Below, in pieces: positions 11,603 to 51,986 of a stretch of DNA of 64,000 nt; within the stretch, counting starts at the first letter, position 1, and each line of letters opens with the position of its first letter. Below the pieces are notes generated by a model, which did not search any database, was not told where the DNA came from, and worked only from the letters and a program-made list of their open reading frames with translations. Origin of the DNA: Shinella pollutisoli (GTDB lineage Bacteria; Pseudomonadota; Alphaproteobacteria; Rhizobiales; Rhizobiaceae); NCBI RefSeq assembly GCF_024609765.1, contig NZ_JANFDG010000023.1:1-64000 (forward strand), given 5' to 3'. A program made the position numbers and the translations under genes.

Positions 11603-11611
11603 GGCGGGGGA

Positions 11612-12229: not shown

Positions 12230-12258
12230 CGAAGTCTCTCCCCTCTGAAACTCGTGTG

Positions 12259-13869: not shown

Positions 13870-14022
13870 CCATCCTTCCTCGGGCGCGCGCCCCGCGCCG
13901 TTTTCCCACGACGTATCAGCGAGCCGGAATATTCGGGCGTGCCGCGGCGAATCGCATCTTTTCTCGCGCGCGCCGATTTGCTACGCCGCAAGCCGACCGA
14001 GATGGAAGGAAAGGGAGCCCCC

Positions 14023-14793: not shown

Positions 14794-14896
14794 CGGGCGC
14801 GCCGCCCGAATGGCGGCGAGGGCTTGGAATGACGGGCGGCTTGGTATAAGGAGCCGCTAACTCCCATTTGGGCCGCGCGCCCCGGATATCGAAAAC

Positions 14897-15322
14897 ATGC
14901 AGACCATCTTGCTCGTCATCTATCTCATGGTCGTCGTCGCGCTCATCGGCGTGGTGCTGATCCAGCGCTCGGAAGGCGGCGGCCTCGGCATCGGCGGCGG
15001 GTCCGGCTTCATGTCGGCGCGCGGCACGGCCAACGCGCTGACCCGCGCGACGGCGATCCTGGCGGCGCTCTTCTTCGTGCTGGCGCTCGCCATGGGCATC
15101 CTCGCCCGCTACGAGACGCAGCCGACCGACATCCTCGACCGCATTCCGGGCACGACCGGCACGGGCGGCGTCCTCGATGCGCTCGGCGGCGGCGAAGGCG
15201 AGCAGGGCCAGGCGCCCGCATCCGGCACGAGCGAGCAGGCGCCGGCGACCTCCGACACCGTTCCGGCGGACGGCGCGGGCACGGCCGGCCAGAGCAATTC
15301 CGACGTGCCGAGCGGCCAGTAA
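14897..15322 (+). CDS. secG: preprotein translocase subunit SecG
   Basis: Inner-membrane accessory subunit of the SecYEG protein export channel, 141 residues. The first membrane segment is TILLVIYLMVVVALIGVVLIQ, followed by RSEGGGLGIGGGSGFMSARG, a typical SecG loop, and a second segment ATAILAALFFVLALAMGILA. The C-terminal 70 residues are a low-complexity Ala/Gly/Glu/Thr tail, as usual in alphaproteobacterial SecG. A clear intrinsic terminator follows at 15346. Confidence 0.95.
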   Translation: MQTILLVIYLMVVVALIGVVLIQRSEGGGLGIGGGSGFMSARGTANALTRATAILAALFFVLALAMGILARYETQPTDILDRIPGTTGTGGVLDALGGGEGEQGQAPASGTSEQAPATSDTVPADGAGTAGQSNSDVPSGQ

Positions 15323-15345
15323 GCCGCAGGGGACCGAAACGAACC

Positions 15346-15379
15346 GGCCGGTTGGCGAAACCCAACCGGCCTTCTTCTT
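15346..15379 (+). terminator. intrinsic terminator after secG
   Basis: Perfect 10-bp stem GGCCGGTTGG / CCAACCGGCC with a CGAAAC loop, followed by a T-rich tract (TTCTTCTTGT). It lies 23 bases after the secG stop and ends the tpiA-secG unit, so pyrG probably has its own promoter in the 90 bases that follow. Confidence 0.85.
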
Positions 15380-15385
15380 GTGTAA

Positions 15386-17098
<1,713 letters not shown>

Positions 17099-39069: not shown

Positions 39070-39582
39070 TCAGCCCTGCGGCGACAGGGTGACGGAGGTG
39101 CCGGTCGCGGCGAGGTTGAGGCCGAGCTGGCCGCTGACGCTCACCGTCTGCAGGTGGATCGACCCGGACGTGCCGCCGACCAGCACATTGGCGCCGACGC
39201 CGGCGAGAACCGTCGCCTCGGCCGTGGCCCCCTGGTAGAGGCCGCCGAGCGAGCCCCGGTGGTAGCCGGCCGTCGGCGCGAAGACGGCCCAGACGATGCG
39301 GCCGCGGGTGGTGAAGCCGAGGTCGACGCCCATCTTGCGGATCACGCCGGAATAGCCGTCCTCCTGGCCCCGGATCGAGCGGAAGACGCAGTCGGCGGAC
39401 TTTGCCGAGCCGAGCACGTAGCCGACGCCGCCGCCGACGTCGCAGGTGAGCATGCCGATCTTGACGCCGTCCTGGGAGTCCGGTTCGACATAGACCGGCG
39501 CCGCCTCGCGCACCGTCATGTCCGCAGCACTCGCGGCCGTGGCGAGCGCGAGGGTGAGGGCAGTTGCAAGCAATTTCGTCAT
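39070..39582 (-). CDS. DUF992 domain protein, secreted
   Basis: Secreted protein of 170 residues of the DUF992 family, found mostly in Rhizobiales and without known function. The signal peptide is TKLLATALTLALATAASA. The mature domain shows VKIGMLTCDVGGGVGYVLGSAKSADCVFRS with two Cys, YSGVIRKMGVDLGFTTRGRIVWAVFAPT and a Gly-rich C-terminal end (LAGVGANVLVGGTSGSIHLQTVSVSGQLGLNLA in outline). GGAGTG lies upstream. It is likely a periplasmic or envelope protein. Confidence 0.85.
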   Translation of the reverse strand: MTKLLATALTLALATAASAADMTVREAAPVYVEPDSQDGVKIGMLTCDVGGGVGYVLGSAKSADCVFRSIRGQEDGYSGVIRKMGVDLGFTTRGRIVWAVFAPTAGYHRGSLGGLYQGATAEATVLAGVGANVLVGGTSGSIHLQTVSVSGQLGLNLAATGTSVTLSPQG

Positions 39583-40032: not shown

Positions 40033-40443
40033 TCAATGGGAGTTCGCAGAGCGCGAACGGGCCGAGCGCCAGAGGAAAACCGACACGGATACGACGATCC
40101 AGGCAAGCGCGATGCCGACAAGGTTGGGAAAGATGTCGACGACACGCGGATTGTGGCCGATTACGGTGGTCTGAACGAGTTCCCAGCTCACGCCCACAAG
40201 AAAAGTCAGCACGGCAGCAAGCCGGATGCGCGAGTAGCCGGTTGCGAGTACGGCGAGGACAAACAGCATAGCCATGGAGGCAATGTGCGGCATCTTGGTC
40301 AGGGCATTGACGATTGCCTCGGGCGTAACGGTGAAGTCCATCTGCGGAGGACGGCGACCATCGGGAGCCCGATTGGCAGCCCAGATACTGGCCAAAGCGA
40401 GGGCCGTAAACGGTAGCGTGCGAAGAACCCTTAATACTTTCAT
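40033..40443 (-). CDS. VanZ-like membrane protein
   Basis: Small membrane protein of 136 residues. Hydrophobic segments are LRTLPFTALALASIWAA, MASMAMLFVLAVLATGY-like and AAVLTFLVGVSWELVQ. The segment SWELVQ...RVVDIFPNLVGIALAW matches the conserved E-x2-Q...D-x3-N-x2-G pattern of VanZ-like domains, whose role in most bacteria is unknown. ATG 40443 has GGAG 10 bases ahead. It is the last chromosomal gene before the left junction of the element, 118 bases away. Confidence 0.7.
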   Translation of the reverse strand: MKVLRVLRTLPFTALALASIWAANRAPDGRRPPQMDFTVTPEAIVNALTKMPHIASMAMLFVLAVLATGYSRIRLAAVLTFLVGVSWELVQTTVIGHNPRVVDIFPNLVGIALAWIVVSVSVFLWRSARSRSANSH

Positions 40444-40560: not shown

Positions 40561-40574
40561 TGGCGGATGGGGTG
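40561..40574 (+). repeat. attL core (copy of tRNA-Ser 3' end)
   Basis: TGGCGGATGGGGTG, identical over 14 bases to 51897-51910. Read on the reverse strand it is CACCCCATCCGCCA, the last 14 bases of tRNA-Ser including CCA. No tRNA body is attached here, so this is the copy made by integration. Confidence 0.85.
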
Positions 40575-40587
40575 TCTTTAGAAATTC

Positions 40588-40606
40588 CGTTTTTCCGTGA
40601 AAAACG
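40588..40606. repeat. palindrome next to attL
   Basis: Perfect 8-bp arms CGTTTTTC / GAAAAACG around CGT, 14 bases inside the attL core. Its inner 17 bases share the GTTTT-N7-AAAAC frame with a second palindrome at 44681-44697. It may be an operator or a site for integrase or excisionase. Confidence 0.55.
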
Positions 40607-40687
40607 TTGTCAAAGGATGTAAACGCATCCCGTTGAAATATCTTGCGGATTTCCAATTTCCATTGAAAATAGATACTTGCTAGCGGC

Positions 40688-40729
40688 GACCGGAAATAGG
40701 ACCGGAAATAGGACCGGAGCCGCTGGTCC
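40688..40729 (+). repeat. AAATAGGACCGG repeats, left arm sites
   Basis: Two exact tandem copies of AAATAGGACCGG at 40694-40705 and 40706-40717, preceded by a partial copy (GACCGG) and followed by an inverted GGTCC at 40725-40729. The same motif recurs beside the right junction (51790-51840). Position between attL and the integrase start suggests arm-type integrase or excisionase binding sites. Confidence 0.6.
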
Positions 40730-40761
40730 CTTTTGAACGGAATGGATTGAAGGAACGAAAC

Positions 40762-42003
40762 GTGGCCCCCCGATTGCTGAACAAACTCACCCCGCTTGCA
40801 GTCAAGAACGCGCCTGTCGGTCGCCATGGCGACGGTGGCGGCCTCTATTTGCTCGTTCGGCCTGACGGCCGGCGATCCTGGCTGCTACGCTTCGTTCTCA
40901 ACGGCCGTCAGCGCGACATGGGGCTTGGCACGGCCGCTGGCCCGGATGCCGTCAGCCTCAAGGACGCGCGCTCGGCCGCAGCCGAAGCGCGCAAGCTGCT
41001 CGACGCCGGCATCGACCCGATAGTCATGCGCGGCAAGAAGCTCGAAGAGGCGAAGGCTGACCTCGAAAAGCCGACCTTCGAGGCGTTCGCGAAGGACTTC
41101 ATCGATACGAAAGCAACCGCATTGCGGAATGAAAAGCACATCGATCAATGGCGCATGACGGTCGGCCCTGCATATTGCAAAGGCATCCAGAAAAAACGGC
41201 TTGACGAGATCGACACGGAAGACGCGCTTGCGATCCTTTCACCTATCTGGACGGTGAAGTCTGAAACCGCCGCCCGCATTCGCGGCCGGCTCGAAGCGAT
41301 CCTTGACGCCGCCAAGGCAAAGGGCCTGCGAAGCGGAGAGAACCCCTTCCGCCTGCGTGGGCATATCGAGTTTCTTCTGCCGAAGCGAAATAGGCTTCAG
41401 CGGGGCCACCATGCAGCGATGGATTACAAGGCCGTTCCGGCCTTCTGGCCGAAGCTCGACGCGCTCGATAGCCTCAGCGCGCAGGCGCTCAAATTTACGA
41501 TCCTGACCGCCGCACGCAGCGGCGAGACGCGCGGAGCGACATGGGGCGAGATCGACCTTGACGAGAAGCTATGGACCGTGCCCAAGGAACGGATGAAGGC
41601 CGGCCGTGAACATCAAGTGCCGCTCTCGGATGAAGCGGTAGCGATCTTGCGCAAGGTGCTGCCGCTCGCGCCGCAAGGCGCGGAGCGCGGCAAGGCACTG
41701 GTCTTCCCATCGCGAAAGCGAACGCCCCTTTCTGATATGAGCTTGGCAATGTGCTTGCGTGGTCGCGTCGAAGGCATCACGGTTCATGGCTTTCGTTCCA
41801 CGTTCCGGGATTGGTGCGGCGACATGACCACCTATCCGCGTGAAGTCGCGGAAGCGGCGCTTGCGCATACTTTGCGCGGCGTCGAGGGAGCTTACAGGCG
41901 CGGCGCGGCGCTTGAGAAGCGTCGCGCACTGATGAGCGATTGGGCTGCATACGTGACGGGCACGCAAGCACGCAACGTTCTTCAATTTCAAAGGTCTGCG
42001 TAG
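40762..42003 (+). CDS. int: P4-type tyrosine integrase
   Basis: Site-specific recombinase of about 413 residues. The N-terminal DUF4102 arm-binding domain begins LNKLTPLAVKNAPVGRHGDGGGLYLLV, as in prophage P4-type integrases. The catalytic domain shows Arg252 in TAARSGETRG, His342 and Arg345 in HGFRSTFRDW, His369 in AHTLRG and the nucleophile Tyr378 in GAYRRG, so it looks intact. A GTG start at 40762 follows AAGGA; a TTG at 40747 is the alternative. It lies 187 bases from attL and reads into the element. P4-type enzymes commonly use tRNA 3' ends, matching the tRNA-Ser target found here. Confidence 0.94.
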   Translation: MAPRLLNKLTPLAVKNAPVGRHGDGGGLYLLVRPDGRRSWLLRFVLNGRQRDMGLGTAAGPDAVSLKDARSAAAEARKLLDAGIDPIVMRGKKLEEAKADLEKPTFEAFAKDFIDTKATALRNEKHIDQWRMTVGPAYCKGIQKKRLDEIDTEDALAILSPIWTVKSETAARIRGRLEAILDAAKAKGLRSGENPFRLRGHIEFLLPKRNRLQRGHHAAMDYKAVPAFWPKLDALDSLSAQALKFTILTAARSGETRGATWGEIDLDEKLWTVPKERMKAGREHQVPLSDEAVAILRKVLPLAPQGAERGKALVFPSRKRTPLSDMSLAMCLRGRVEGITVHGFRSTFRDWCGDMTTYPREVAEAALAHTLRGVEGAYRRGAALEKRRALMSDWAAYVTGTQARNVLQFQRSA

Positions 42004-42040
42004 TGAAAATATAGAATTCCAACGCAACGAATTCTGAATG

Positions 42041-42067
42041 AGCGGCGCCAAATTGCGCCGCTTTTCA
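42041..42067 (+). terminator. intrinsic terminator after the integrase
   Basis: Perfect 8-bp stem AGCGGCGC / GCGCCGCT with a 6-base loop, followed by TTTTCATTTTTT. It lies 38 bases after the integrase stop and isolates int from the genes downstream. Confidence 0.85.
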
Positions 42068-42153
42068 TTTTTTGACTTGCATTTTCGCGATTTTCGCTAA
42101 TACGATTTGGACACTTCGGCACCATAGCCGTCGTTTTGATGGAGAAAATTAAA

Positions 42154-42237
42154 ATGAAACCCGTCACGCGACGCGCAGGTGTAATATGGACCCCGAGGAA
42201 ATTATCGCTCACGAGAAGGATGGCACCCTTCTCCTGA
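42154..42237 (+). CDS. possible 27-codon leader overlapping the excisionase gene
   Basis: ATG at 42154 has a good GGAG site 6 bases upstream and opens a basic 27-residue frame (MKPVTRRAGVIWTPRKLSLT...) that overlaps the start of the excisionase-like gene in another frame. The excisionase start itself has only a weak CAGGT site. It may be a leader that couples translation, or chance. Confidence 0.3.
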   Translation: MKPVTRRAGVIWTPRKLSLTRRMAPFS

Positions 42238-42395
42238 CCGTCGCGGAGGCTGCACGGCAGCTCCGCGTCTCCCGCCCCACTCTTTATAAAATGTTCAGGC
42301 AGGGCCTCCTGCCGAAACGCCGCTTGCTCGGCCGGACGCTCGTTGCGAGGGCTGACCTTGAGCGCTTGATCGCCTCGATCGCGGAGGCCGCCTAG
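42186..42395 (+). CDS. excisionase-like helix-turn-helix protein
   Basis: Small DNA-binding protein of 69 residues with the MerR-like winged helix of excisionases and AlpA-type regulators. TVAEAARQLRVSRPTLYKMFRQGLLPKRRLLGRTLVARADLERLI spans the whole fold (about residues 18-62): helix, turn, recognition helix (VSRPTLYKMF), then wing. In satellites such a protein directs excision and often turns on early genes. It sits right after the integrase terminator as the first gene of the next unit. Confidence 0.85.
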   Translation: MDPEEIIAHEKDGTLLLTVAEAARQLRVSRPTLYKMFRQGLLPKRRLLGRTLVARADLERLIASIAEAA

Positions 42396-42536
42396 ATGTC
42401 GGCCTCGGCTCTCTCTCATCTCGATCGCCTTGCCATGCTCGCCGCCGCCTTCAAGCGGCGGCGCGCGCTTTTGGAGACCCTCGCGCCCACCGCCATCGCA
42501 AAGGCATTGCGCCTGGCCGTAGCAGGGAGGCGCTGA
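42396..42536 (+). CDS. 46-residue basic small protein
   Basis: Short frame beginning immediately after the excisionase stop and ending in TGATG, shared with the next gene. The product, starting MSASALSHLDRLAMLAAAFK, is a single basic amphipathic helix rich in Ala, Leu and Arg. The exact back-to-back and overlapping junctions argue that it is translated within this operon. No family is recognised. Confidence 0.5.
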   Translation: MSASALSHLDRLAMLAAAFKRRRALLETLAPTAIAKALRLAVAGRR

Positions 42537-43492
42537 TGGGTATCGTCCAGAAACCTCGACCGGCAGCGGTCTTTGAGGAAAGCGATCCGCGCGCGGAACA
42601 AGCCTTGCGCGCGGTGCCGAAAGCCGCGCGCTTTCGGCGCGTAGGTTCATGCATTCTCGGTTACGATCACGATCCGCAGTCATATTGTCGCGGCTGGACG
42701 CAAGACCGCCAGCGGGTCGCTGAGATCGAGCGCCTGATCCGTCGTCGGCACGGCGGCCCGGTCGACACTGACGATGGCCTGATTTACCTCGAATTGATTT
42801 ACCCGCATCTGCCCGCCGGATCGGCTCGCGCTTGGGCGACCGCAATGGCGCCGCTGCTGACCGATAGCGAATTCCTGTCTGTCGCCGCGAGCGAGCCGAA
42901 GCGGTTCAACGCGACCGAAGCCGGCAAGGCCTTGGCCCTGACGCGTCAAGAGCGGAATGAGTTGAAGATCACGACCATTCGCGCAGTCGGGCAGACCGAC
43001 GAAAGCATGAAGAAGGAGCGGCGCGAGCGTGATGCCGCTGCGGCCCGCGCCAAGCGGGCCGCGCTGCCGAAGAAGGAAAAGCTCAAGGACACCCGTCCGT
43101 GGGAGGCCCAAGGCATAAGCTACAGGACGTGGCGGCGTCGCCGTCAGAACGATGGCCAAAAAAACGTCGGCAGCAAGTATGAGGATCATATTGCTGCCGA
43201 CGAAAAAATGGCCACACCGAATAGCGCGCGGCCCGCAGGCCGCGCGGCGAAAATGATCAGGCTGTCGCCAGAAACGACCGCAAAGCTGCACGAGATCGGC
43301 CGGATCGCGACCAACGCGAGCAAGCGTGCCAGCGGAGCGGCCGTAGCGCTCGTACGCGTCTTGCAGCCCAACACGAACGAGCAGACGCCTTATAGCGCTC
43401 GCTTGCGTCCTATCGGCGCGGCGGTGCAGAGCCAGCCGTCCATTCCGGTCAAGACCAAAATCGATAAGGGCAACAGGAGGGCAGTCGCATGA
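42536..43492 (+). CDS. unknown element protein, possible replication gene
   Basis: Protein of 318 residues, family not recognised. The N-terminal half is mixed helix with PRAEQALRAVPKAARFRRVGSCILGYDHDP and IYLELIYPHLPAGSARAWATAMAPLL. The middle is strongly charged (KKERRERDAAAARAKRAALPKKEKLKD). Then comes RPWEAQGISYRTWRRRRQ, which resembles a small helix-turn-helix seen near the C-termini of mobile-element replication proteins. It sits in the early position of the element, where satellites often carry replication genes, but no primase or helicase motif is visible. A 38-nt palindrome is embedded at 43165-43202. Confidence 0.6.
   Translation: MGIVQKPRPAAVFEESDPRAEQALRAVPKAARFRRVGSCILGYDHDPQSYCRGWTQDRQRVAEIERLIRRRHGGPVDTDDGLIYLELIYPHLPAGSARAWATAMAPLLTDSEFLSVAASEPKRFNATEAGKALALTRQERNELKITTIRAVGQTDESMKKERRERDAAAARAKRAALPKKEKLKDTRPWEAQGISYRTWRRRRQNDGQKNVGSKYEDHIAADEKMATPNSARPAGRAAKMIRLSPETTAKLHEIGRIATNASKRASGAAVALVRVLQPNTNEQTPYSARLRPIGAAVQSQPSIPVKTKIDKGNRRAVA
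43165..43202. repeat. 38-nt near-perfect palindrome inside a gene
   Basis: Arms CGTCGGCAGCAA (43165-43176) and TTGCTGCCGACG (43191-43202) pair over 12 bp; inside them TATGA and TCATA pair over 5 bp around a GGA loop, with one bulged G. It is flanked by A7 (43158-43164) and A6 (43203-43208). On the reverse strand this reads as a hairpin followed by T7, a good intrinsic terminator against antisense transcription. Alternatively it is a structured origin or packaging site. Confidence 0.75.
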
Positions 43493-43935
43493 GCACTCCC
43501 AGGATTTCTTGGGGACTTTGGGCCGGCCGCCGCGCAGCGGCGGCGTGCGGCATCAATGGCGACGACGCAGAACATTTTGCTCGTGCGCTCGCGCCGAGGA
43601 TTGCCGACATCGCGCGCGAGATCATGCGCACTGAACAGCGGCGCGGGCCTCGCGAGATCGCGCTTTTTATGCTTCGCAATTGCACTGGCCGTCACCAGCG
43701 CGAAGTCATCATCGCAATTACGAACGATGACATTGAGACCGCCGCGCGCAAGATGCTCAAATGGGCGACGGAAGGCTTGGCGCTTGCAGTCAACAATCCT
43801 CGCCCGTTCTTCACCCCCCGGCCTGCAATGTTCGTGACCGTGTTCCATTCCAATGGCGCGCGCACACGTTGGCAGCAAATCCCGAATGATCCCACCGATA
43901 GCGACGGCCATGGTCGCAAGGGAGGCGCGGTATGA
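43489..43935 (+). CDS. unknown element protein
   Basis: Protein of 148 residues, family not recognised. It begins with RISWGLWAGRRAAAACGINGDD, continues with helical stretches (EHFARALAPRIADIAREIMRTE, REVIIAITNDDIETAARKMLKW) and ends in a basic, disordered tail. It overlaps the preceding gene by 4 bases, so the two are probably made together. No membrane span or export signal is present. Confidence 0.6.
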   Translation: MSTPRISWGLWAGRRAAAACGINGDDAEHFARALAPRIADIAREIMRTEQRRGPREIALFMLRNCTGRHQREVIIAITNDDIETAARKMLKWATEGLALAVNNPRPFFTPRPAMFVTVFHSNGARTRWQQIPNDPTDSDGHGRKGGAV

Positions 43936-44117
43936 GCCGCGCCGCCTTCCTGCCTGCGTCTCCTCCCTGCGCGCCCCCATGCGCGCCGTCAGCCCCCCGG
44001 CATCAAAGGATTTCTTGCTATCCCCGCCCCTCTGCGGGCAGCGCTGCCCCGGTGGGCGAGTGTTTTTCCACATTCCGTTTTCCCGTTTCGTTATCGCAGG
44101 AGCATCCCAATGACTAA
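43932..44117 (+). CDS. doubtful 61-codon frame
   Basis: A frame starting in a GTATGAG overlap with the upstream stop and running into the start of the Nu1-like gene. The product is rich in Pro, Ser, Cys and Arg (SRAAFLPASPPCAPPCAPSA) and does not look like a folded protein. It is listed because of the coupled junctions at both ends; it may simply be untranslated spacer. Confidence 0.25.
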   Translation: MSRAAFLPASPPCAPPCAPSAPRHQRISCYPRPSAGSAAPVGECFSTFRFPVSLSQEHPND

Positions 44118-44586
44118 TCCAAACACCCCCGCCGGCAGCGTTTCAGCACAGCAGCTTGCCGCCCTTCTCATGATCTCCACCGGCCGGGTCCGGCAGCTTG
44201 CGCAGGCCGGCATCATCCCGAAGGCCGGCCGCGATGCTTACCCGATGGTCGCCGGCATCAGGGGCTATCTGCGGTGGCTCCAAGACGAGGGACGCCGCGC
44301 CGCGCAGGCGGCGTCGGCGGCGAAGGTCGCCTCTGCGCGCGCGACCGAGATTGAGCAGCGCATCGCACAGAAGATGCGGGAACTGATCCCGCTCGAAGAT
44401 CACAGGCAAGTCATGGGAAGCCTCGTGCGTGTCGTGCGTCGCGAGGTCGAGAAAGTCCCCGCCGCGCTGCCGAGCTACATCCGCAATGAAGTTCGGGCCG
44501 AGATTGATCAGATGATGGGACGGATCGAAAAGGCCGCTGCCGATGCGCAGAAGAGCGCCGAGCTTGGCGAGGATTTCTATAAGTAG
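44110..44586 (+). CDS. Nu1-like small terminase / packaging DNA-binding protein
   Basis: Protein of 158 residues. The N-terminal winged helix-turn-helix (residues about 10-55: VSAQQLAALLMISTGRVRQLAQAGIIP...) is followed by GIRGYLRWLQDEGRRAAQ and a long helix, as in lambda Nu1-type small terminases, which choose the packaging site on phage DNA. The C-terminal half is a coiled-coil-like segment with EVEKVPAALPSYIRNEVRAEID. No large terminase gene follows, so if functional it would have to work with a helper phage's motor. The GGAG ribosome site is clear. Confidence 0.72.
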   Translation: MTNPNTPAGSVSAQQLAALLMISTGRVRQLAQAGIIPKAGRDAYPMVAGIRGYLRWLQDEGRRAAQAASAAKVASARATEIEQRIAQKMRELIPLEDHRQVMGSLVRVVRREVEKVPAALPSYIRNEVRAEIDQMMGRIEKAAADAQKSAELGEDFYK

Positions 44587-44680
44587 AAAACCAACGCACC
44601 ACCATCGATATCGGCGTTGGAAAAGTATTGACGCGATATTCAGCGCCGAGTGAGACAAAAAAATACGTCAGCGCGTCCGT

Positions 44681-44697
44681 GTTTTCTTGACGAAAAC
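44681..44697. repeat. 17-bp palindrome, operator-like
   Basis: GTTTTCTTGACGAAAAC: 6-bp arms around TTGAC, in the 245-base gap between the Nu1-like gene and the gene at 44832. It matches the GTTTT-N7-AAAAC frame of the palindrome beside attL. The same gap holds a further pair TCAGCG / CGCTGA. The gap probably carries a promoter and operator for the capsid unit; I see no gene in it. Confidence 0.45.
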
Positions 44698-44831
44698 GCC
44701 GTTGACGCTGATCATCTTAATCGCCTGATCGCAAATATGCGTGGGTTTCGGTGCCGAGCCCGTGAAAAACGGTAGGGCCGAACAAGACGACGCCTTCGGC
44801 GCGGTCAGGTCATAAAAGGACACCGACCGTC

Positions 44832-45080
44832 ATGCCGAACTCTCTTCCCCCCATCGAAATCAATTTGAGCACCGTGCTCGCGTGCTGCGATTGCCATACG
44901 CGCGATGCAGTCCTCGCGCTGCTTGAGCGCGGTGGCGATCTCACTCTCGCCGAGATCGCCGAAGTCATCGGCACCGACACGAACGAACTCATCCGCCAGT
45001 TGGTCGGCTACCTGATCGCGGATGAGGCGCTGCGGCTGCTCGAAGCCGAAGCCGATGAAAACCGGGGGCGGGCGAACTGA
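44832..45080 (+). CDS. small helical element protein
   Basis: Protein of 82 residues, family not recognised. The part LERGGDLTLAEIAEVIGTDTNELIRQLVGYLIADEALRLLE spans about residues 33-73 and reads like a winged helix or a short helical bundle. A Cys pair with His (CCDCHT) lies near residue 18, possibly metal-binding. Its stop overlaps the capsid fusion start by one base (TGATG). It may be a small head-associated or regulatory protein. Confidence 0.6.
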   Translation: MPNSLPPIEINLSTVLACCDCHTRDAVLALLERGGDLTLAEIAEVIGTDTNELIRQLVGYLIADEALRLLEAEADENRGRAN

Positions 45081-47029
45081 TGAACGCGCCTCTCACCATC
45101 AGCCTTCCGGCCATGAGGCGCGATGCGCAGCTTCGCGCCGCTTCCTTCGATGAAGCCGCGAACACGATCGAAGTGGTTTGGACGACGGGCGCAAAGGTCC
45201 GGCGCTTTTCGTGGCTCGATGGGGCCTTTGACGAAGAGCTTGTCGTCAGCCCGCAGTCCGTCCGCCTTGACCGGCTCAACGCGGGCGCGCCCTTCCTCAA
45301 TACCCATGCGAGCTACGACCTTGCCGATGTGATCGGCTCGGTCGTGCCCGGCAGCGCAAAGATCGTGAGGGGCCAGGGCGTTGCTCGCATCCTGTTGAGC
45401 GATGCGCCCGGCGATGCCGATACCGTCGCCAAGATCAAGGCCGGCGTCATCCGCAATGTGAGCGTCGGGTATCGCGTGCATCGCGTCGAAAAGATCGAAA
45501 GCGACGGCGATGTCCCGCTTCATCGTGTGGTCGATTTCGAGCCTCTCGAAATCTCGGCCGTGCCGATCCCGGCTGATGCCGGCGCGCAAATCCGCGCCGG
45601 CTCTGAAACCTTTCCCGCAATCATCGAACTGAAAGGGGCAACGAAGATGCCTACGAAGACGAATGCCAACCCTGCCGCCGACGCGGCGACCCTCGAAGCC
45701 GAGCGCAGCCGCGCCGGCACCATCACCGACCTCGCGACCCGCGCCGGCCTGCCGGAAATGATCGCGCCCGCGATCCAGGCAGGCACGACGGTTGATGATT
45801 TCCGCGCAGCGCTGTTCGACCGCATGGTCGAAGACGAACGTCGCGTCCATCCCGGCGGCCCCGGCCAGCAGATCGGCGCGCCGGCTACCGTGGCCGATCA
45901 CAGCTTCGACAATCGTCGCGCTGCCGCGATGGCATCGGCGATCCTGCACCGCGTCGATCCGACCGCCTTCCCGCTGGAAGCCGGTGCCGAGGTCTTCGTC
46001 GCAATGCCTCTGTTGGAAGTCGCCCGCGCGGCTGTCGAAGGCAGGGGCGTCCGCACCGCCGGCATGTCGAAGATGCAGATCGCGGCGGCGGCGCTGGATC
46101 AGCGGTCGCTCGGCGGCCTGCACGGCACGAGCGACTTCCCGGCGGTCCTTGCCGGTGTCACCGGCAAGGTACTGCGGATGGCCTATGAGGCTGCGCCGCA
46201 GACCTTCCGGCCGCTCGTCCGCGTGACGACGGTCCCCGACTTCAAAGAGCAAAGCCGCGTGTCGATCGGCGAGGCGCCCGCCCTTGAACGGGTAAACGAG
46301 CATGGCGAGTTCAAGCGCGGCACGATCGGCGAAGGCAAAGAAACCTTCCGGCTCGCGACCTATGGAAAGGTCATCGGCTTGACCCGGCAGAGCATCGTCA
46401 ACGACGACTTGAGCGCTTTCGACCGCCTGCCGCGCGCCTTCGGCGTCCAGGCGGCGCAGTTGGAGAGCGATGTCGTGTGGGCGCAGATCATCGGCAATCC
46501 GAAGATGGGCGACAACGTGGACCTGTTCCACTCGGATCACAAAAACCTCGGAACCGATCTCGCGATTGGCGAGGCGTCCGTCAGCGAAGCGCGCAAGGGC
46601 ATGGGCCTCCAAACCGGCCTTGACGGTGCCACGGCGCTGAACCTGACGCCCGCATATCTGATCGTCCCGAAGGCGCAGGAGACGGCGGCGTTGAAGTTCC
46701 TGACGACGATCACGCCGGCCAAGACCGACGACGCGGTGCCGCGCGAGCTTCGCAATCTTACGGTCATCGCGGAACCCCGCCTCGACCTCGGCATTCCGCG
46801 CTTCGGCATCGCGGGCAATGATGACGCCTTCTATTTCGCCGCCTCGCCGAGCGTCGTCGACATCGTGGAACTGGCCTATCTCGAAGGCCAGCAGGGCGTC
46901 TTCACCGAAACCCGTATGGGCTTTGACATCGACGGGATCGAGATCAAGGCGCGCCTCGACGTGGCCGCCAAGGTGCTCGACTGGCGCGGCCTCTTCAAGA
47001 CGCCTTACGACGGCCCGTCCGGCGGCTGA
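45080..47029 (+). CDS. prohead protease / major capsid protein fusion
   Basis: Fusion protein of 649 residues. The N-terminal ~185 residues match HK97-type prohead proteases: FLNTHASYDLADVIGSV supplies the catalytic His76 and IRNVSVGYRVH the catalytic Ser128. A short linker and a scaffold-like helical part (about 200-290) lead to a major capsid domain (about 300-645) with LEVARAAVEGRG, RQSIVNDDLSAFDRLPRAFG and a C-terminal VDIVELAYLEGQQGVFTETRMGF block. Fused protease-capsid genes are known in several phages. An internal ATG at 45647 (residue 190) has AAAGGGG upstream, which may yield capsid without protease. Confidence 0.9.
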   Translation: MNAPLTISLPAMRRDAQLRAASFDEAANTIEVVWTTGAKVRRFSWLDGAFDEELVVSPQSVRLDRLNAGAPFLNTHASYDLADVIGSVVPGSAKIVRGQGVARILLSDAPGDADTVAKIKAGVIRNVSVGYRVHRVEKIESDGDVPLHRVVDFEPLEISAVPIPADAGAQIRAGSETFPAIIELKGATKMPTKTNANPAADAATLEAERSRAGTITDLATRAGLPEMIAPAIQAGTTVDDFRAALFDRMVEDERRVHPGGPGQQIGAPATVADHSFDNRRAAAMASAILHRVDPTAFPLEAGAEVFVAMPLLEVARAAVEGRGVRTAGMSKMQIAAAALDQRSLGGLHGTSDFPAVLAGVTGKVLRMAYEAAPQTFRPLVRVTTVPDFKEQSRVSIGEAPALERVNEHGEFKRGTIGEGKETFRLATYGKVIGLTRQSIVNDDLSAFDRLPRAFGVQAAQLESDVVWAQIIGNPKMGDNVDLFHSDHKNLGTDLAIGEASVSEARKGMGLQTGLDGATALNLTPAYLIVPKAQETAALKFLTTITPAKTDDAVPRELRNLTVIAEPRLDLGIPRFGIAGNDDAFYFAASPSVVDIVELAYLEGQQGVFTETRMGFDIDGIEIKARLDVAAKVLDWRGLFKTPYDGPSGG

Positions 47030-47155
47030 CAAACTCTTCGGCGGCGGCCTAGTCCTCCGCCGCCCTCGGCGGTCCGCCACCTGCGAGGCGGGCCGCCACC
47101 AGCGCCCGGCCGTCGTGCGCCGGTCGGGCGCTTCCTCCCTTCATGAGGTGGCACG

Positions 47156-49708
47156 GTGGCAAACCACGTTTCTCAACTATTAGTGCGCCTGATTGATGGC
47201 GTGTCCGGTCCCGCCCGCAAAGCTGCCGGCGCGCTGCTCGGCATCGGGCAGGCCGCCAACAAGATCGGCGGAATGCAGGGCCGCTTGCAGGCCGCGATGG
47301 CGAAGAACGAACGTGCGCTTGATGCCGCGCGGGGTCGAATGGTCGATGCCGTGGCGGCCGGTTACGCGCTGCAACGAGCGCTCGCTGCCCCGATCCGTGC
47401 AGCGTCCGAATTTGAAAGCGCGATGGCCGATGTCCGCAAGGTCGTGGACTTCGACACCCCGCAGGCGTTCAAAGATTTCCAGACTTCGGTTCTCCAAATG
47501 TCGAAGCGCCTGCCCCTCGCGGCGCAGGACTTGACGAAAATCGTGGCTGCTGCCGGTCAGGCCGGCATCGCGCGGGAAGAGCTTCTTCGGTTCACCGATA
47601 TGGCGGCCAAGGTCGGTGTCGCCTTCGACATCACCGCCGAGCAGACGGGCGAAGCGCTGGCGAAGGTGATGACCGGGCTTGATCTTTCCGTCGATCAGGT
47701 CGGGCGGCTTGCCGACGCGATGAACCATTTGAGCAACGCGCAGGCATCGAGCGCCGCCGACATTCTCGACGTGGTACGCCGCGTCGGCGCGACCTCCAAG
47801 CAGTATGGCTATAGCGCCGTCGAAGTCTCTGCCTTCGCCTCGGCCATGCTGTCGGCCGGCATGGAAAGCGAAGTGGTCGCGACCTCCTTCCGCAACATGG
47901 GCCTTGCGCTGACGCGGGGCGCGTCAGCGACCAAGCGCCAGCGGCAAGCTTTCCGGGCGCTCGGTCTCGATGCCACGAAGGTGTCGAAGGCGATGCAGCG
48001 CGACGCCGTAGGCACCACGCTCGAAGTCCTTGAGGCGATTGGCAAGCTGCCGAAAGATTTGCAGGCGTCCTTGTCGTCCGATCTCTTCGGCAATGAGGCT
48101 CGCGCCCTTGGCCCGCTCCTGACGAACCTCAATCTGCTTAAAAAGTCGCTCGGGCTGGTCGCGAACGAGACCGACTATGCCGGCTCGGCGACCCGCGAAT
48201 ACGAGGCCCGCGCGGCGACCTTCGCCAATAATCTCCAACTCTTCCGCAACCGCCTCAATGCGGTCGCGGTGACGATCGGCAACGTTCTGCTTCCGCCACT
48301 CACGGCGATGATGGATAAGCTCGGGCCGATTGTGGATGCGGTCCAGCGCTTCGCCGAAGCCCATCCGACCCTCACGGCGAACGTCATCGCAGCAACATCG
48401 GCGCTGATCGGTTTCAGGATCGCGCTCGCCGGCCTGCGGTTCGCCGGGCTGTTCGTGAAGGGCGGCGCGCTGTCGCTGCTGGCGGCGACCTTCGGCCGGA
48501 TCGCCGCCGCAGGGAGCAAGATGGGCGGCGCGGTACGCGCGACGTGGGCCTTGCAAGCCGCCCTGGCGGGCGGCGCAAGCTACGGTGGGCTGGCGAAGGC
48601 GGCAGACGCTCTCAAGGCCATCGCACGCATTACGCCCGGCCTGCGGCTGGTCGGTCCTGCCATCGGCGCGATCGTCGCCGCGCTCGGCTCTCTGACCGTT
48701 CCCATCGTCGCCGGCATTGCCGCCGTCGCGGCAGTCGGCTTCACGATCTGGAAATATTGGGATCGGCTGTCCTCGATCTTCCGTGGCGTGGCGCTGGCGA
48801 TCGGCGATCAGCTTGCGCCGGCATTCGAGGCAGCGCGTCCCGTGCTTGAATGGCTCGCGCCGGTCGGCGACGCGATAGCCTGGGCCTGGGAAAAGGCCGC
48901 GAGCGCTCTTAGCGCCGTGGGCGACTGGTTCGGCTCGATTTTCTCCCGCGAACTTCTCTCCGAAGATCAGAAGGCGGCGCTTGAGGGTGACGCGCGGGAC
49001 ATCACGAACCGCATCATCAACGGCCTCAAGGTAGGGCATGGGCTTCTCCTTGATGCCGGCGTGCAGATGATCCAGTCCCTTCTAGGAGGGATGGCCTCCA
49101 AGATCGGGGAGGCCGTCACCTGGGCGGCCACGATCCCGCAGCGGATCAGGGCGGCATTCGGGAAGATCGACTTCAAGGACGCCGTTTCGATCGAGGCGCT
49201 GGTTGCGGCATTCAAGTCTGCGAATGCGCAAATCTTTGCCGCTGGCGCCGACATGATCCAGTCCCTTTGGGATGGGATGGTGAGCAAGGTCGAGCAGCTT
49301 ATCGCGTGGGTGAAGACGATCCCGGCGCGGATCAAGGCGGCGATCACGACCGACCTTTCCGGCGCCATTCGCGGGCTTATCCCTTCGTGGGCGGGCGGCG
49401 GCGGTGGCGGCGGTGGCGATAGCCAGCCGGCCGTAGACGGCAAGCGCGCGAGCGGCGGCCCGGTCTATCCCGGCCGGAGCTACCTTGTCGGCGAGCAGGG
49501 GCCGGAAATCATCACGCCGTCGCGCAGCGGCTACGTCCATCCGAACGGCTCGGGCGGCGGTGGGAGCTTCAACCAAACAGTCAACATCAACATTACCGGC
49601 GCGCAGGACGATGAAGCGATCATCGACAAGGTGAAACGAGCAATCTCCGACGCAACCCGAGAGGCGCTGCGCGGCGTCCAGGCCGACTATGGGTTCAAAT
49701 ACACATGA
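47156..49708 (+). CDS. phage tail tape measure protein
   Basis: Protein of 850 residues of the TP901-type tape measure family, which sets tail length and reaches the host membrane during DNA injection. The TMP core (about 75-300) shows FESAMADVRKVVDF, AAAGQAGIAREELLRF, AMNHLSNAQASSAADILDVVRR and SAFASAMLSAGMESEVVATSFRN. Hydrophobic stretches lie at about 390-435 and 495-525. A Gly/Ser-rich part (GGGGGGGDSQ) leads to a C-terminal NINITGAQDDEAIIDKV. GTG 47156 follows GAGG. It is notable that no other tail gene is present beside it. Confidence 0.93.
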   Translation: MANHVSQLLVRLIDGVSGPARKAAGALLGIGQAANKIGGMQGRLQAAMAKNERALDAARGRMVDAVAAGYALQRALAAPIRAASEFESAMADVRKVVDFDTPQAFKDFQTSVLQMSKRLPLAAQDLTKIVAAAGQAGIAREELLRFTDMAAKVGVAFDITAEQTGEALAKVMTGLDLSVDQVGRLADAMNHLSNAQASSAADILDVVRRVGATSKQYGYSAVEVSAFASAMLSAGMESEVVATSFRNMGLALTRGASATKRQRQAFRALGLDATKVSKAMQRDAVGTTLEVLEAIGKLPKDLQASLSSDLFGNEARALGPLLTNLNLLKKSLGLVANETDYAGSATREYEARAATFANNLQLFRNRLNAVAVTIGNVLLPPLTAMMDKLGPIVDAVQRFAEAHPTLTANVIAATSALIGFRIALAGLRFAGLFVKGGALSLLAATFGRIAAAGSKMGGAVRATWALQAALAGGASYGGLAKAADALKAIARITPGLRLVGPAIGAIVAALGSLTVPIVAGIAAVAAVGFTIWKYWDRLSSIFRGVALAIGDQLAPAFEAARPVLEWLAPVGDAIAWAWEKAASALSAVGDWFGSIFSRELLSEDQKAALEGDARDITNRIINGLKVGHGLLLDAGVQMIQSLLGGMASKIGEAVTWAATIPQRIRAAFGKIDFKDAVSIEALVAAFKSANAQIFAAGADMIQSLWDGMVSKVEQLIAWVKTIPARIKAAITTDLSGAIRGLIPSWAGGGGGGGGDSQPAVDGKRASGGPVYPGRSYLVGEQGPEIITPSRSGYVHPNGSGGGGSFNQTVNINITGAQDDEAIIDKVKRAISDATREALRGVQADYGFKYT

Positions 49709-50211
49709 CAATCGCCGCCGATGATCTCGAAGAACTCGCCCCGCTGATGATGGCGCACATCGAGCGGCAGATCGCCGAGCGCCGTATTACCGGCGATGCC
49801 GTAACCGGCCTTTCCTTCACGCGGGCCGCCATGATGCGGGCCGCGCTCTATTTCCGTCGCTTCGTATCGAGCGACGATGAGCACGCGGAAGGCGCAGGCC
49901 AAGCGTTCGGCTTGACGTGGATGCTCGCCGAACGCGAGACCATGCAGCGCGTCATGACAGCGATCTCATCGCCGGCCGCCAAGGGACGTGAGGCCGATGT
50001 CATCGCCACGCTGATGAAGGGCGCGAGCATTGAAGAAGCCCTTGCGATGACGAATAGCGCGCCTGCCGCTCTGGTCACGCAGGAGGGCCGTGTAGTCGCA
50101 TTTCCGGCACGGCGCGTCACAGACAGCGCCGACGATGAAACGCGCGCCAGCGCGGCTGTCTCGCGGCTCGGTTCTAGGACTGAACAAGAGGACGGGCGAA
50201 ATGATTGCTGA
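49705..50211 (+). CDS. unknown element protein
   Basis: Mostly helical acidic protein of 168 residues without a recognised family, starting in an ATGA overlap with the tape measure stop. Features are LEELAPLMMAHIERQIAERRI, LTWMLAERETMQRVMTAISSPAAKG and a C-terminal disordered tail. The position suggests a small virion-related or tape-measure-associated protein, but this is only from context. A GC hairpin follows 14 bases after the stop. Confidence 0.6.
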   Translation: MTIAADDLEELAPLMMAHIERQIAERRITGDAVTGLSFTRAAMMRAALYFRRFVSSDDEHAEGAGQAFGLTWMLAERETMQRVMTAISSPAAKGREADVIATLMKGASIEEALAMTNSAPAALVTQEGRVVAFPARRVTDSADDETRASAAVSRLGSRTEQEDGRNDC

Positions 50212-50224
50212 CCAAAGCGATCCG

Positions 50225-50254
50225 GCATTGGCCGTGCTTGAGCACGGCCAATGC
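50225..50254 (+). repeat. perfect 13-bp hairpin with TTGA loop
   Basis: GCATTGGCCGTGC and GCACGGCCAATGC pair perfectly around TTGA. There is no T tract after it, so it is not a standard intrinsic terminator. It stands between the tape-measure unit and the AbiTii-type gene in a 267-base gap. It could end or stabilise the upstream mRNA, or be a protein-binding site. I see no convincing gene in the gap. Confidence 0.7.
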
Positions 50255-50478
50255 ATTGAGCCAGCTCGCACAAATACCGCGCCACTTCCGGGCGGGGGCT
50301 AGCTGCCTCGCTGCGAAAGGTGTCCTCCCGGTGGGCGCGGTTATTCTAATTCCGGGTCAAGGGCACCACCGGCTAGAACAGGCGGGCGGCTTTATAGCCG
50401 CCCGCTGCTTTCCCGCTCGGGACTTGCGCGTGGCACCGGCAACCGAAATATTGAAGCTTTCGATGATCGGGGGCACAA

Positions 50479-51390
50479 TTGAGTATTCTTCGCGACATAC
50501 AGGCAGCTATCCTCCAAGAGAACCCAGACCTCGGCACGATCCTGCTCAAGCTGCGTCTTCTCGCGTCGCGGCTTGGTAGTGAGCCGCTTGAGGATTGGGT
50601 GAAGTATGAAGCGGAAGGGTATCCCCGCGATATAGAAGTCCCGACCTACCGGATCGTCAGCGTTTCATACACCGGCAGTTGGTCCGGTCCTTTTGGTGGC
50701 GGCATAAGCAACGCTCCGATCCCACCGTATCTGATAGAGAAGCACGCAGGGGAACATTGGACCCGACATCGGGTTCGCGAGAGCATTGCCGGCGTTCAAG
50801 AGATGGCGAGTAAGGATCACGACCTAGGTCTCAATTCCTCGAACCTAATTCTCATGCTGCAAGGCAAAGTCTATGAGGATTATGCTTGCAATGCCGTCTC
50901 AGGAAATATTTCCATCTTCGCCGTCCGCGAAATCGTCCAAGCTGTCCGTGCTCGCATCCTTGAGCTGACGATTGAGCTTGAGAAGCGGCTGCCGCAGGCG
51001 GTTGAAGTCACGTTGCAAAGCGTGATCGAGAAGACCCCTGAAAGCGCTGCAACGGTCACGCAGATTTTCAATCAGACGATCCACGGAAATGTCACTCATG
51101 TGACGGCGACCGACAACGCGCACGTCTCGCTCGCGATCACGGCAGGCGACAATGCGTCGATGGTCAGTGAACTGATTAAGGCGGGATTGTCCGAACCGGC
51201 CGCCAAGGAAATCACGGAGATCGTCGCCTCCGAGAAGCCGGACAATGCCGACCAACCCCTCGGGCGCAAGGCTCTCGACTGGATCAAGAAGAACACGCCC
51301 AAGGCGGCTGGCAGCGCTTGGAAGATCGGATCAGCCGTAGCGACTGATTTGCTTAAAGAGGCAGCTTTGAAATACTACGGATTGAAGTGA
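50479..51390 (+). CDS. AbiTii-domain abortive infection protein
   Basis: Protein of 303 residues. The N-terminal ~190 residues fit the AbiTii domain, named after a lactococcal abortive-infection factor: the start SILRDIQAAILQENPDLGTILLKLRLLASRLGSEPLEDWVKYEAEGYP (in outline residues 2-49) and VPTYRIVSVSYTGSW agree with the family's LAARLGS...W-x2-E-x2-GYP pattern. A linker follows, then a C-terminal region with a coupled helix (GRKALDWIKKNTPKAAGSAWKIGSAVATDLLKEAA) that may touch the membrane. The start is TTG 50479 after a G-rich site. It is the likely defence cargo of the element, set apart from the virion genes. Confidence 0.78.
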   Translation: MSILRDIQAAILQENPDLGTILLKLRLLASRLGSEPLEDWVKYEAEGYPRDIEVPTYRIVSVSYTGSWSGPFGGGISNAPIPPYLIEKHAGEHWTRHRVRESIAGVQEMASKDHDLGLNSSNLILMLQGKVYEDYACNAVSGNISIFAVREIVQAVRARILELTIELEKRLPQAVEVTLQSVIEKTPESAATVTQIFNQTIHGNVTHVTATDNAHVSLAITAGDNASMVSELIKAGLSEPAAKEITEIVASEKPDNADQPLGRKALDWIKKNTPKAAGSAWKIGSAVATDLLKEAALKYYGLK

Positions 51391-51502
51391 GAACCGGGGA
51401 AGCGCGACGACAGCGCGCTATGGCCCCTCGCCGCCCTTGTGATAGCGGAGAAAGTCAGACGCGCGCCCACGGGCGCGTGTGGCTTGAAGAAGGGGCATTA
51501 CC

Positions 51503-51775
51503 TTGACTGACGATCTTATGCCAATCGGCTCTCCTGCCTGGGCAGAGGCCATGGCGGCGAGTATGCGCGTCGCCGCGCGCATCGCCGAAATGAGCGATGA
51601 CGAGCTTGCCGCCTTCCGCGAGCGACTGCGGGCCGATCCCGAGACGCGCGAGACCATCGCCAGCGATCTCGCCGACGCGCATCGAAATCTTGCCGACATG
51701 CTCGCCGTCATCGAAATCGCCGAGCGCCGCCTTGAAGTCGTCAAGCAGGACGAGCGCTGCCGCTGCGACTGCTGA
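51503..51775 (+). CDS. small acidic helical protein
   Basis: Protein of 90 residues with a TTG start after AAGGGG. The sequence is nearly all helix: AWAEAMAASMRVAARIAEMSDDELAAFRERLRADPETRETIA and LADMLAVIEIAERRLEVVKQ, ending with a Cys cluster (CRCDC). No family is recognised. It is the last gene before the right junction. The Cys cluster could bind metal, but too little is visible to say more. Confidence 0.55.
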   Translation: MTDDLMPIGSPAWAEAMAASMRVAARIAEMSDDELAAFRERLRADPETRETIASDLADAHRNLADMLAVIEIAERRLEVVKQDERCRCDC

Positions 51776-51789
51776 TCAAAAAAAATCTT

Positions 51790-51840
51790 GGTCCTATTGG
51801 CCGATAGCAAAACGGAAAAATAGGACCGCCGCTAGGACCA
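51790..51840. repeat. TAGGACC repeats, right arm sites
   Basis: AAATAGGACCG at 51818-51828 and TAGGACCA at 51833-51840 in direct orientation, with inverted GGTCCTATT at 51790-51798. The same motif stands beside attL at 40694-40717. Their placement within 110 bases of both junctions is what arm-type recombination sites would show. Confidence 0.6.
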
Positions 51841-51896
51841 AGGATCGGCAACAACAAGAAACCGCAAGCAAAATCAATTTGTTATGGCAAATCGGT

Positions 51897-51910
51897 TGGC
51901 GGATGGGGTG
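51897..51910 (+). repeat. attR core (tRNA-Ser 3' end)
   Basis: TGGCGGATGGGGTG, identical to 40561-40574. On the reverse strand it is the last 14 bases of tRNA-Ser, from the acceptor stem to CCA. Because the element brings the same bases, the tRNA stays intact after integration. Confidence 0.85.
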
Positions 51911-51986
51911 GGATTCGAACCCACGGTAGGCTTTCGCCTACGCCGGTTTTCAAGACCGGTGCCTTAAACCGCTCGGCCACCCATCC
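51897..51986 (-). tRNA. tRNA-Ser (anticodon TGA)
   Basis: 90-nt class II tRNA on the reverse strand: acceptor GGATGGG / CCCATCC, D-arm GCCGAGCGGTTTAAGGC, anticodon arm ACCGGT-CTTGAAA-ACCGGC region with TGA, a long variable arm (GTAGGCGAAAGCCTAC), T-arm GGTTCGAATCC, discriminator G and encoded CCA. Its 3' end is the integration target of the element to the left. Confidence 0.96.

Follow-up and report, generated by a model that had tools for sequence, protein, structure and literature searches.

A 64,000-bp stretch of Shinella pollutisoli DNA (RefSeq assembly GCF_024609765.1, contig NZ_JANFDG010000023.1, positions 1 to 64,000 of the forward strand; hereafter the window) contains, at positions 40561-51910, a compact element with phage-type genes that ends in a tRNA-Ser gene. 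The source genome comprises 5.2 Mb in 79 contigs and is 99.6% complete. The main open reading frames (ORFs) of the element were scanned against the Pfam, PHROG and NCBIfam libraries. Loci used for comparison are given as L numbers, contigs as C numbers and genomes as G numbers. The following features were recognised:

40561-40574, plus strand: distal 14-bp attachment repeat, an exact copy of the tRNA-Ser 3' end
40747-42003, plus strand: tyrosine integrase of the P4 type, 418 amino acids (aa), with a TTG start in the ORF listing (Pfam)
42186-42395, plus strand: HTH_17/excisionase-like protein, 69 aa (Pfam, 2e-14; TIGR01764, above cut-off)
42536-43492, plus strand: 318-aa protein of no known family, with distant relatives only
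43489-43935, plus strand: 148-aa protein, matched only by one PHROG family of function not known (0.0098)
44110-44586, plus strand: small terminase subunit TerS (Nu1-like), 158 aa (phrog_57, 2e-10)
44832-45080, plus strand: 82-aa protein with a weak helix-turn-helix (HTH) match, below the Pfam cut-off only
45080-47029, plus strand: fusion of prohead protease, scaffold and major capsid protein (MCP), 649 aa, with shortened tether/scaffold (NF045541)
45647-45649, plus strand: candidate internal start codon Met190 of the fusion gene, an in-frame ATG with a weak Shine-Dalgarno (SD)-like AAGG 10 nt upstream
47156-49708, plus strand: tail tape-measure protein (TMP), 850 aa, with a GTG start in the ORF listing (TIGR01760)
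49705-50211, plus strand: 168-aa protein following TMP, with relatives in L147 and L004
50479-51390, plus strand: AbiTii-type abortive-infection protein, defence cargo (Pfam AbiTii, 4e-44; PADLOC AbiTii, 3e-36)
51503-51775, plus strand: 90-aa protein, matched only by phrog_14134 (0.005)
51897-51910, plus strand: attachment repeat within the tRNA-Ser 3' end (exact match; ARAGORN)
51897-51986, minus strand: tRNA-Ser(TGA), the integration target (ARAGORN)

The initial annotation had placed the ends of the element at identical 14-bp repeats, the second forming the 3' end of tRNA-Ser(TGA), and both ends proved to be exact. The window contains the 14-mer TGGCGGATGGGGTG at 40561 and 51897 and nowhere else. 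A second-order Markov model gave an expectation of 4e-4 occurrences for both strands, and the 14-mer was present in none of 60 simulated windows. The repeats bracket 11,350 bp, in which all genes lie on one strand and the GC content is 62.7%, compared with 67.9% in the left and 66.8% in the right flank.

The complete P4-type integrase, the excisionase-like protein, the Nu1-like, capsid and tape-measure genes and the AbiTii-type gene named in the initial annotation were all recovered by the profile searches. The integrase contains the Pfam domains Arm-DNA-bind_3, Phage_int_M and Phage_integrase, corresponding to the arm-binding, core and catalytic domains, together with the R and HxxR motifs, and a candidate catalytic Tyr was seen by eye in the translation. 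Its identity to the integrases of two satellites is 47% (L149, in tRNA-Arg) and 42% (L153, in tRNA-Ser); for those of the viral contigs L234 and L235 it is 44-45%, and for that of phage DMCA 44%. The protease-capsid fusion scored 693 bits with NF045541 (cut-off 525) and contains the conserved residues H76 and S128, while TMP reached 223 bits with TIGR01760 (cut-off 28.8). TerS shares 35-36% identity with the TerS proteins of phages L066, L122 and L005 and had no match among solved structures. AbiTii is a putative and plausible means of host protection.

The remaining proteins are less readily assigned. No Pfam, PHROG or NCBIfam match was obtained for the 318-aa protein, and no Pfam or NCBIfam match for the 148-aa protein. 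Distant relatives of the 318-aa protein occur in 14 of 394 genomes of the family (own genome included; L218-L233) and on three Methylobacteriaceae plasmids, and weak ones in the bounded element L279, which resembles capsid-forming phage-inducible chromosomal islands (cfPICIs; at position 1764, 5e-8), and in L147 (2e-6); it is possibly a replication or regulatory protein. The 168-aa protein has a relative after TMP in L147 (39% identity) and, weakly, in L004, two loci in which no gene for the large terminase subunit TerL or the portal was found among ORFs of at least 60 aa. In a peptide-pattern scan, neither the 318-aa nor the 168-aa protein had relatives in viral contigs. The 82-aa ORF showed no similarity to the HTH protein whose gene precedes that of MCP in other satellites.

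Profile searches of all ORFs of at least 60 aa detected no TerL, portal, tail-tube, gpW or h10 gene in the element. The profiles were built from one Rhodobacter phage and its relatives and represent a single TerL/portal lineage. Gene calls were made with a simple greedy script that missed the portal in L289, and absences of TerL and portal are therefore stated throughout from all ORFs of at least 60 aa. No tube, sheath or baseplate gene was recognised in the element beside TMP. The element is thus without a full virion gene set and has attachment ends and an integrase, two properties expected of phage satellites in general, mobilisation by a helper phage being the third. As judged from predicted genes, it was shown to combine TerS without TerL, a protease-capsid fusion without portal and TMP without other tail genes with an intact integrase and AbiTii.

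The capsid protein was compared with 394 genomes of the family and found a match in 55. Twenty of the listed places were taken further, picked mostly for having no portal in a first, short locus; the sample also contained the second copy from the source genome and loci of 25 genome contigs and 80 viral contigs. Of 25 loci with tRNA genes that were inspected for tRNA repeats, 20 have the capsid gene bracketed by such a pair, the others being L019, L132, L146, L158 and L159. Neither a TerL nor a portal ORF was found in 16 of the bracketed loci, and both are present in four (L160, L162, L163 and L165). The 16 include the window element, L004 (19.7 kb) and L022, whose capsid gene is split over two frames; all others are referred to as the 13 bounded TerL-less relatives. 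One of these lies in the source genome itself (C14:74255-85822, from position 8255 to the end of L060). It occupies 11,568 bp at a tRNA-Met gene, its capsid protein is 39% identical to that of the window, and its TMP gene is opposite in direction to the capsid gene. The 12 further tRNA-bounded, TerL-less, capsid-bearing elements come from relatives, and 11 of them measure 10.7-12.1 kb. The mean size of 13 elements, including the window element and leaving out L164 (9.0 kb), L004 and L022, is 11,594 bp (standard deviation 426 bp). The helper-dependent satellite proposed in the initial annotation gains support from this second element in the genome and the 12 in relatives, all without TerL or portal; the exact gene order int-xis-unknown-Nu1-capsid-TMP-AbiTii, for which a search had been suggested, recurred in none of the loci examined.

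TMP is present in 11 of the 13 bounded TerL-less relatives (not found in L009 and L149). Nine of these 11 have the TMP and capsid genes in opposite orientation, which indicates that the pair was kept through rearrangement. From within these elements or up to 300 bp outside them, 146 of 174 other proteins were scanned, 28 short ones (nearly all below 70 aa) being omitted, and the listing of matched families (76 PHROG, 36 Pfam) covered the 25 most widely shared. Among the matches listed, TerS occurs in five relatives, an excisionase-like protein in four, head-tail attachment in two, and a phage tail protein, a tail chaperone, a baseplate hub and a holin in one each. Defence-type matches, again among those listed, were putAbiC, SocA and RelE (one each); AbiP was matched once, and weak matches were obtained with the models mad1 (two proteins), Csa3, CasR, CARF3 and PDC-S02.

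A second layout was found in the TerL-bearing elements, which encode TerS, TerL, portal, the capsid fusion, a gpW-like protein, a connector and an integrase adjoining the tRNA gene. This layout fits the cfPICI plan. In a sample of the order, the capsid protein was matched in 69 of 397 genomes, and 36 loci were taken from near-full-length matches. tRNA repeats of 14-53 bp bracket 21 of them, at sizes of 10.7-15.4 kb (median 12.1 kb); 18 contain TerL and portal, two only the portal (L289 and L300) and one (L271) neither of the two. L271 does have a TMP gene. Near-identical capsids identified L276 and L280 as duplicates of L017 and L018, respectively; L107 and L108 as well as L024 and L057 are further such pairs. 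Several of the cfPICI-like elements (L269-L300, L160-L165) lie in tRNA-Ser, tRNA-Phe or tRNA-Arg genes. L265, whose capsid protein was the closest new relative in the sample of the order (54% identity), has MCP alone in common with the window element. In L147 and L194 (15426-17135; G189:C52), a capsid gene, TMP and a gene of the 168-aa type lie together; another TMP gene is located about 10 kb from them, and a large serine recombinase is encoded close by. This locus, in which no tyrosine integrase was found, possibly represents tandem or recombinase-swapped satellites. No attachment ends were found for L147 and L146, and both were counted as probable satellites only.

To place the capsid gene, a tree of 98 proteins (57 from phages, 19 from TerL-bearing and 22 from TerL-less satellites) was inferred with a quick IQ-TREE run under LG+G4. 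The capsid protein of the second element on C14 falls into a satellite-rich clade, and that of the window groups with phage L066. Baseplate genes follow the capsid gene in L066, and a sheath gene adjoins TMP in L064. When the L064 sheath was compared with nine records, it matched L010, L005 and L122 at 59-72% identity and L070 and L074 weakly, with no match in L066 and L072 (both fragments), L003 and L014. The window TMP shares 46-52% identity with its counterparts in the sheath-bearing phages L005, L122 and L064 and is only distantly similar to that of L010 (72 bits). The similarities of TerS, capsid and TMP indicate that all three resemble one myovirus lineage, with lambda-type heads and P2-type tails. 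An origin of MCP and TMP from two unrelated phages was considered and rejected, as L005 and L122 have a related MCP, a sheath and a TMP with 46% identity. L014, which also has a related MCP, encodes a TMP that scored only 39 bits against the window TMP.

Alignment with the window protein showed that satellite capsid precursors owe their shorter length mainly to a single segment, which lies between protease and shell. The length of this segment was determined as the spacer from the conserved residue D166 to F388, and F388-D634 was taken as the shell segment; the 98 proteins of the tree, which form the first sample, had been labelled as phage or satellite by gene content ahead of any spacer measurement. 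In this sample, the spacer comprises 224-305 residues in the 57 phages (in 53 of which the locus has TerL or portal without an integrase match) and 170-222 in the 41 satellites (17 of them attachment-bounded, with 186-222). For the shell segment, the median is 242 residues in phages, 239 in TerL-bearing and 240 in TerL-less satellites. Sister comparisons gave spacers of 222 residues for the window vs 277 for L066, 201 for L146 vs 274 and 266, and 222 for L019 vs 297 and 302. Five independent phage-satellite tree pairs were assessed by the length of the sub-segment 177-250, the cut being set at 80 residues; four differed in the same direction and one showed no difference (p 0.125, too few pairs for significance). 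In the second sample, 20 of the 21 bounded satellites have spacers of 186-205 residues and one (L271) has 227; four loci that are phage-like by gene content have 227, 227 (L291 and L292), 243 and 256, and 11 of the 36 loci, with spacers of 193-224, were left unclassified. Pooled without duplicates, 58 of 59 satellite spacers are at most 222 residues long and 60 of 60 phage spacers at least 224; after clustering at 70% identity, the same rule holds for 50 of 51 satellite and 40 of 40 phage clusters. A perfect separation, true in the first sample, was ruled out by the overlap of L271 with the phages L291 and L292. Phages within the satellite-rich clade (L023, L024 with its copy L057, and L140) keep spacers of 297-305 residues, and spacer length thus follows lifestyle rather than ancestry.

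AlphaFold2 models of the window and L066 precursors were built from 44-sequence alignments. In the window model, the protease domain is followed by a low-confidence stretch (188-200) and a first helix (202-221). In the L066 model, confidence is low at 196-233 and again at 235-247, and a helix spans 246-277. From this comparison, the satellite protein appears to be without about 40 residues of the tether and about 12 of the first scaffold helix. Part of the window model was placed among HK97-fold capsids by Foldseek. In the 98 genes, in-frame ATGs are preceded by an SD-like motif in 87 of 152 cases in the spacer vs 96 of 1163 elsewhere; 77 of the 98 genes have such an ATG in the spacer, and L146 and L156 have none. 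This suggests that the 'fusion' gene makes a second, shorter scaffold-capsid product from a predicted internal start, Met190 in the window. Lambda, with its C and Nu3 proteins, is a precedent for a separate, shorter scaffold product.

To examine the insertion context, 20 congeners were searched with the tRNA side of the element, and tRNA-Ser stretches were taken from 13. In 10 of the 13, the left neighbour gene (39070-39582 in the window) lies only 0.4-1.9 kb from tRNA-Ser, leaving no room for the element; it is absent from the stretch in the other three. The tRNA 3' end faces this neighbour, in the orientation of the window and of an empty site, in four of the 10 (L181, L182, L188 and L193), and in L188 and L193 all 14 bp of the repeat are matched at the tRNA end. 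An uninterrupted neighbourhood at tRNA-Ser in congeners is therefore supported at the level of gene arrangement. Of the empty tRNA-Ser site predicted by the initial annotation, the neighbourhood was thus recovered in the expected orientation in four of 13 stretches; the interval between neighbour and tRNA could not be aligned to the window, and no base-exact empty site was found. A VanZ-like gene, recognised by eye at 40033-40443, adjoins the distal attachment repeat in the window and had no match in any of the 13 congener stretches. In L189 (G401, 6804-16601), tRNA-Ser is separated by about 10 kb from the right-hand neighbour gene of the window, compared with about 0.7 kb in the window itself.

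The element is probably an integrated, helper-dependent phage satellite. Its likely mode of transfer, as read from its gene content, would be small chimeric particles composed of satellite capsid and TMP and the motor, portal and tail of the helper. The cycle would begin when a helper infects the cell or is induced, whereupon the element would excise and replicate; this helper is most likely a temperate myovirus of Hyphomicrobiales that has a lambda-type head and a P2-type tail. Satellite TerS would steer the TerL of the helper to satellite DNA. Small heads would be built on helper portals by the satellite capsid protein, whose tether and scaffold helix are shortened, either alone or mixed with helper capsid protein, and these heads would join tails in which satellite TMP replaces that of the helper, the tube, sheath, baseplate and fibres being contributed by the helper. 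The 11.35-kb genome would then be delivered and integrate, and AbiTii may protect carriers against other phages. The identity of the helper is suggested by the 58-64% MCP identity to L066, the element having a homologue of the capsid protein and neither TerL nor portal. Tail shortening by TMP was rejected as a function, since the window TMP has 850 aa vs 736-797 aa in related phages; a changed tail length is therefore not expected. TMP may possibly act in DNA entry or in escape from tail-directed defence.

Several observations weigh against a satellite. The window capsid is sister to that of the full phage L066 (58-64% identity, SH-aLRT 99), is nested among phages and lies outside the main satellite clade. 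Its spacer of 222 residues is at the long edge of the satellites, two residues below the shortest phage. TerS, MCP and TMP stand in phage order, as expected of a reduced prophage, and the loci examined contained no close second copy of the element. The tRNA is inverted relative to the window in six of the 10 informative congener stretches; with the neighbour as reference, this means that the site itself has been rearranged within the genus. Finally, the initial annotation had suggested looking for helper prophages in the same genome, and none of the matching head family was detected there. Genome-wide searches, which covered the GpA-type TerL (PF05876) and the lambda-type portal (PF05136) as the only TerL and portal families, gave no match, and each was positive in three of 14 control genomes. 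Contig C19 carries a Mu-like block of head and contractile-tail genes (L197, 1360-17278; gpT-type capsid, head protease, TMP and baseplate), which is possibly a tail source, though of another head family. A review notes that some satellites have no usable helper resident in the genome (PMC11389934).

One rival reading is a cryptic prophage remnant, an immobile prophage with lambda-type head and P2-type tail at tRNA-Ser that has lost TerL, portal, connectors, tube, sheath and lysis genes. The sister relationship to L066, the phage order of three genes from one phage lineage and the lack of a second copy of the exact element are all in its favour. Yet the main reading frames are uninterrupted and of normal length, the attachment ends are exact on both sides, and the size falls within the narrow range of 12 other tRNA-bounded elements; moreover, the capsid protein is shortened as in other satellites, unlike that of the sister phage, and relatives of the gene that follows TMP occur in L147 and, weakly, in L004, which lack TerL and portal, the viral pattern scan having given none. 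A remnant is thus unlikely. The initial annotation had regarded homologues that are mere pieces of one full-length prophage, with this copy an obvious deletion derivative, as speaking against a satellite. For the class, this does not apply, given 14 bounded TerL-less elements (not counting L004, L022 and L271); for the window copy, it applies in part, owing to the phage order and the single myovirus lineage. Derivation by deletion from a single prophage was pursued through the MCP tree, TMP similarity and capsid length and was retained as a rival, and because TerS, capsid and TMP keep phage order and resemble one myovirus lineage, the element may have begun as a reduced prophage. A strict capsid-forming island that makes the whole head itself and borrows only tails would explain the MCP and protease of the element, and other elements of the order do encode TerS, TerL, portal and connectors; it is extremely improbable, as the window and 13 other bounded elements contain no TerL or portal ORF and the window has a tail gene, even though putative tmp genes are reported for some cf-PICIs (PMC12987554). 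A chromosomal defence island, in which AbiTii is selected and the phage genes are passengers, could draw on AbiTii and on the single putAbiC, SocA, RelE and AbiP matches among the 146 proteins of 13 relatives. The capsid gene served as search query, and its presence throughout is therefore a matter of selection; TMP, however, was not a query and occurs in 11 of the 13 bounded relatives, and each of these four defence families was matched by only one protein, which makes such an island quite improbable.

Beyond the helper-dependent satellite itself, it is tentatively proposed that satellites of this order repeatedly captured the protease-scaffold-capsid gene of a helper, each time cutting the tether and the first scaffold helix, so that in-frame shortening and the internal start would act as a capsid-size switch and, with TMP, yield a particle chimeric in head and tail; this may well prove incorrect. 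For the capsid tether, there is an appreciable, if minor, probability that the shortening reflects general gene compaction in small genomes and entails no change in capsid size. TerL-bearing satellites are also shorter in TerL (medians 595 vs 675.5) and portal (468 vs 520.5), as determined with the simple gene caller and with some outliers, and this compaction could explain part of the capsid shortening; most of the lost residues are, in addition, predicted at low confidence, as expected of disorder. Conversely, MCP is shortened mainly in one segment while F388-D634 keeps its length (242/239/240), the first scaffold helix is also shorter in the models (20 vs 32 residues), and the window TMP is not shorter than in related phages.

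The helper of P4 is a myovirus, and P4 itself is not known to have a capsid or TMP gene. The window element resembles P4 in its P4-type integrase, its tRNA integration site and its size, that of P4 being 11.6 kb (PMC4936722). No P4-type primase was matched among the scanned element proteins in Pfam, PHROG or NCBIfam, and the same general scans returned nothing for Sid and Psu, no search with dedicated Sid or Psu models having been made. cfPICIs, which encode TerL, portal and connectors (PMC10690885), share with the window an own capsid protein and protease (NF045541), an integrase and a tRNA site; the window differs in having no TerL, portal, gpW or h10 ORF. In SaPIbov5, the capsid protein homologue Ccm redirects capsid size, and its delta domains are suspected to matter (PMC8569155). 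There, a satellite encodes a homologue of the capsid protein of its helper, and the window capsid protein would be its counterpart with respect to a presumed helper; the two systems differ in host phylum and capsid family, and in the window the protease is fused, TMP is encoded, and no prolate helper is known.

With respect to the tail, the closest parallel is PLE of Vibrio cholerae, whose TMP is part of chimeric tails and whose transduction is reported to drop by 96-99.9% without tmp (PMC12987554); the same report notes putative tmp genes for other satellites and, in the legend of Extended Data Fig. 10, for some cf-PICIs. PLE and the window element both encode a TMP. PLE is described as using an external scaffold, TcaP, on the capsid protein of its helper, with no capsid homologue of its own in that account (PMC10945586), whereas the window has its own capsid gene. 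No tail assembly chaperone (TAC) was recognised in the element in the Pfam, PHROG and NCBIfam scans. A set of 224 putative Escherichia coli satellites is reported to carry MCP, decoration protein, TMP and baseplate genes (PMC10448857). They resemble the element in MCP and TMP, mostly tRNA sites, tyrosine integrases and, as far as that report describes them, the lack of a large terminase. They are described as having no terminase or prohead protease genes (PMC10448857), whereas the window has TerS and a fused protease; they also carry RepA_N, for which the element has no Pfam match. The likeness noted here is one of gene content.

Satellites are described as widely distributed across Bacteria (PMC10690885). 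In the open-access literature combining satellites with alphaproteobacteria or rhizobia, no such satellites were apparent from titles or the beginnings of abstracts. The present comparison indicates that tRNA-bounded, capsid-bearing elements, mostly of 11-13 kb, recur in the order Hyphomicrobiales in two layouts. Their capsid genes offer a natural series for the study of capsid-size control, as the difference between those of sister phages and satellites lies mainly within a single stretch of about 55-80 residues, and the idea of satellite-made chimeric tails is extended to elements with a capsid gene of their own. Set beside P4, cfPICIs, SaPIbov5, PLE and the E. coli satellites, the parts of the window element have each been published elsewhere; their combination is new.

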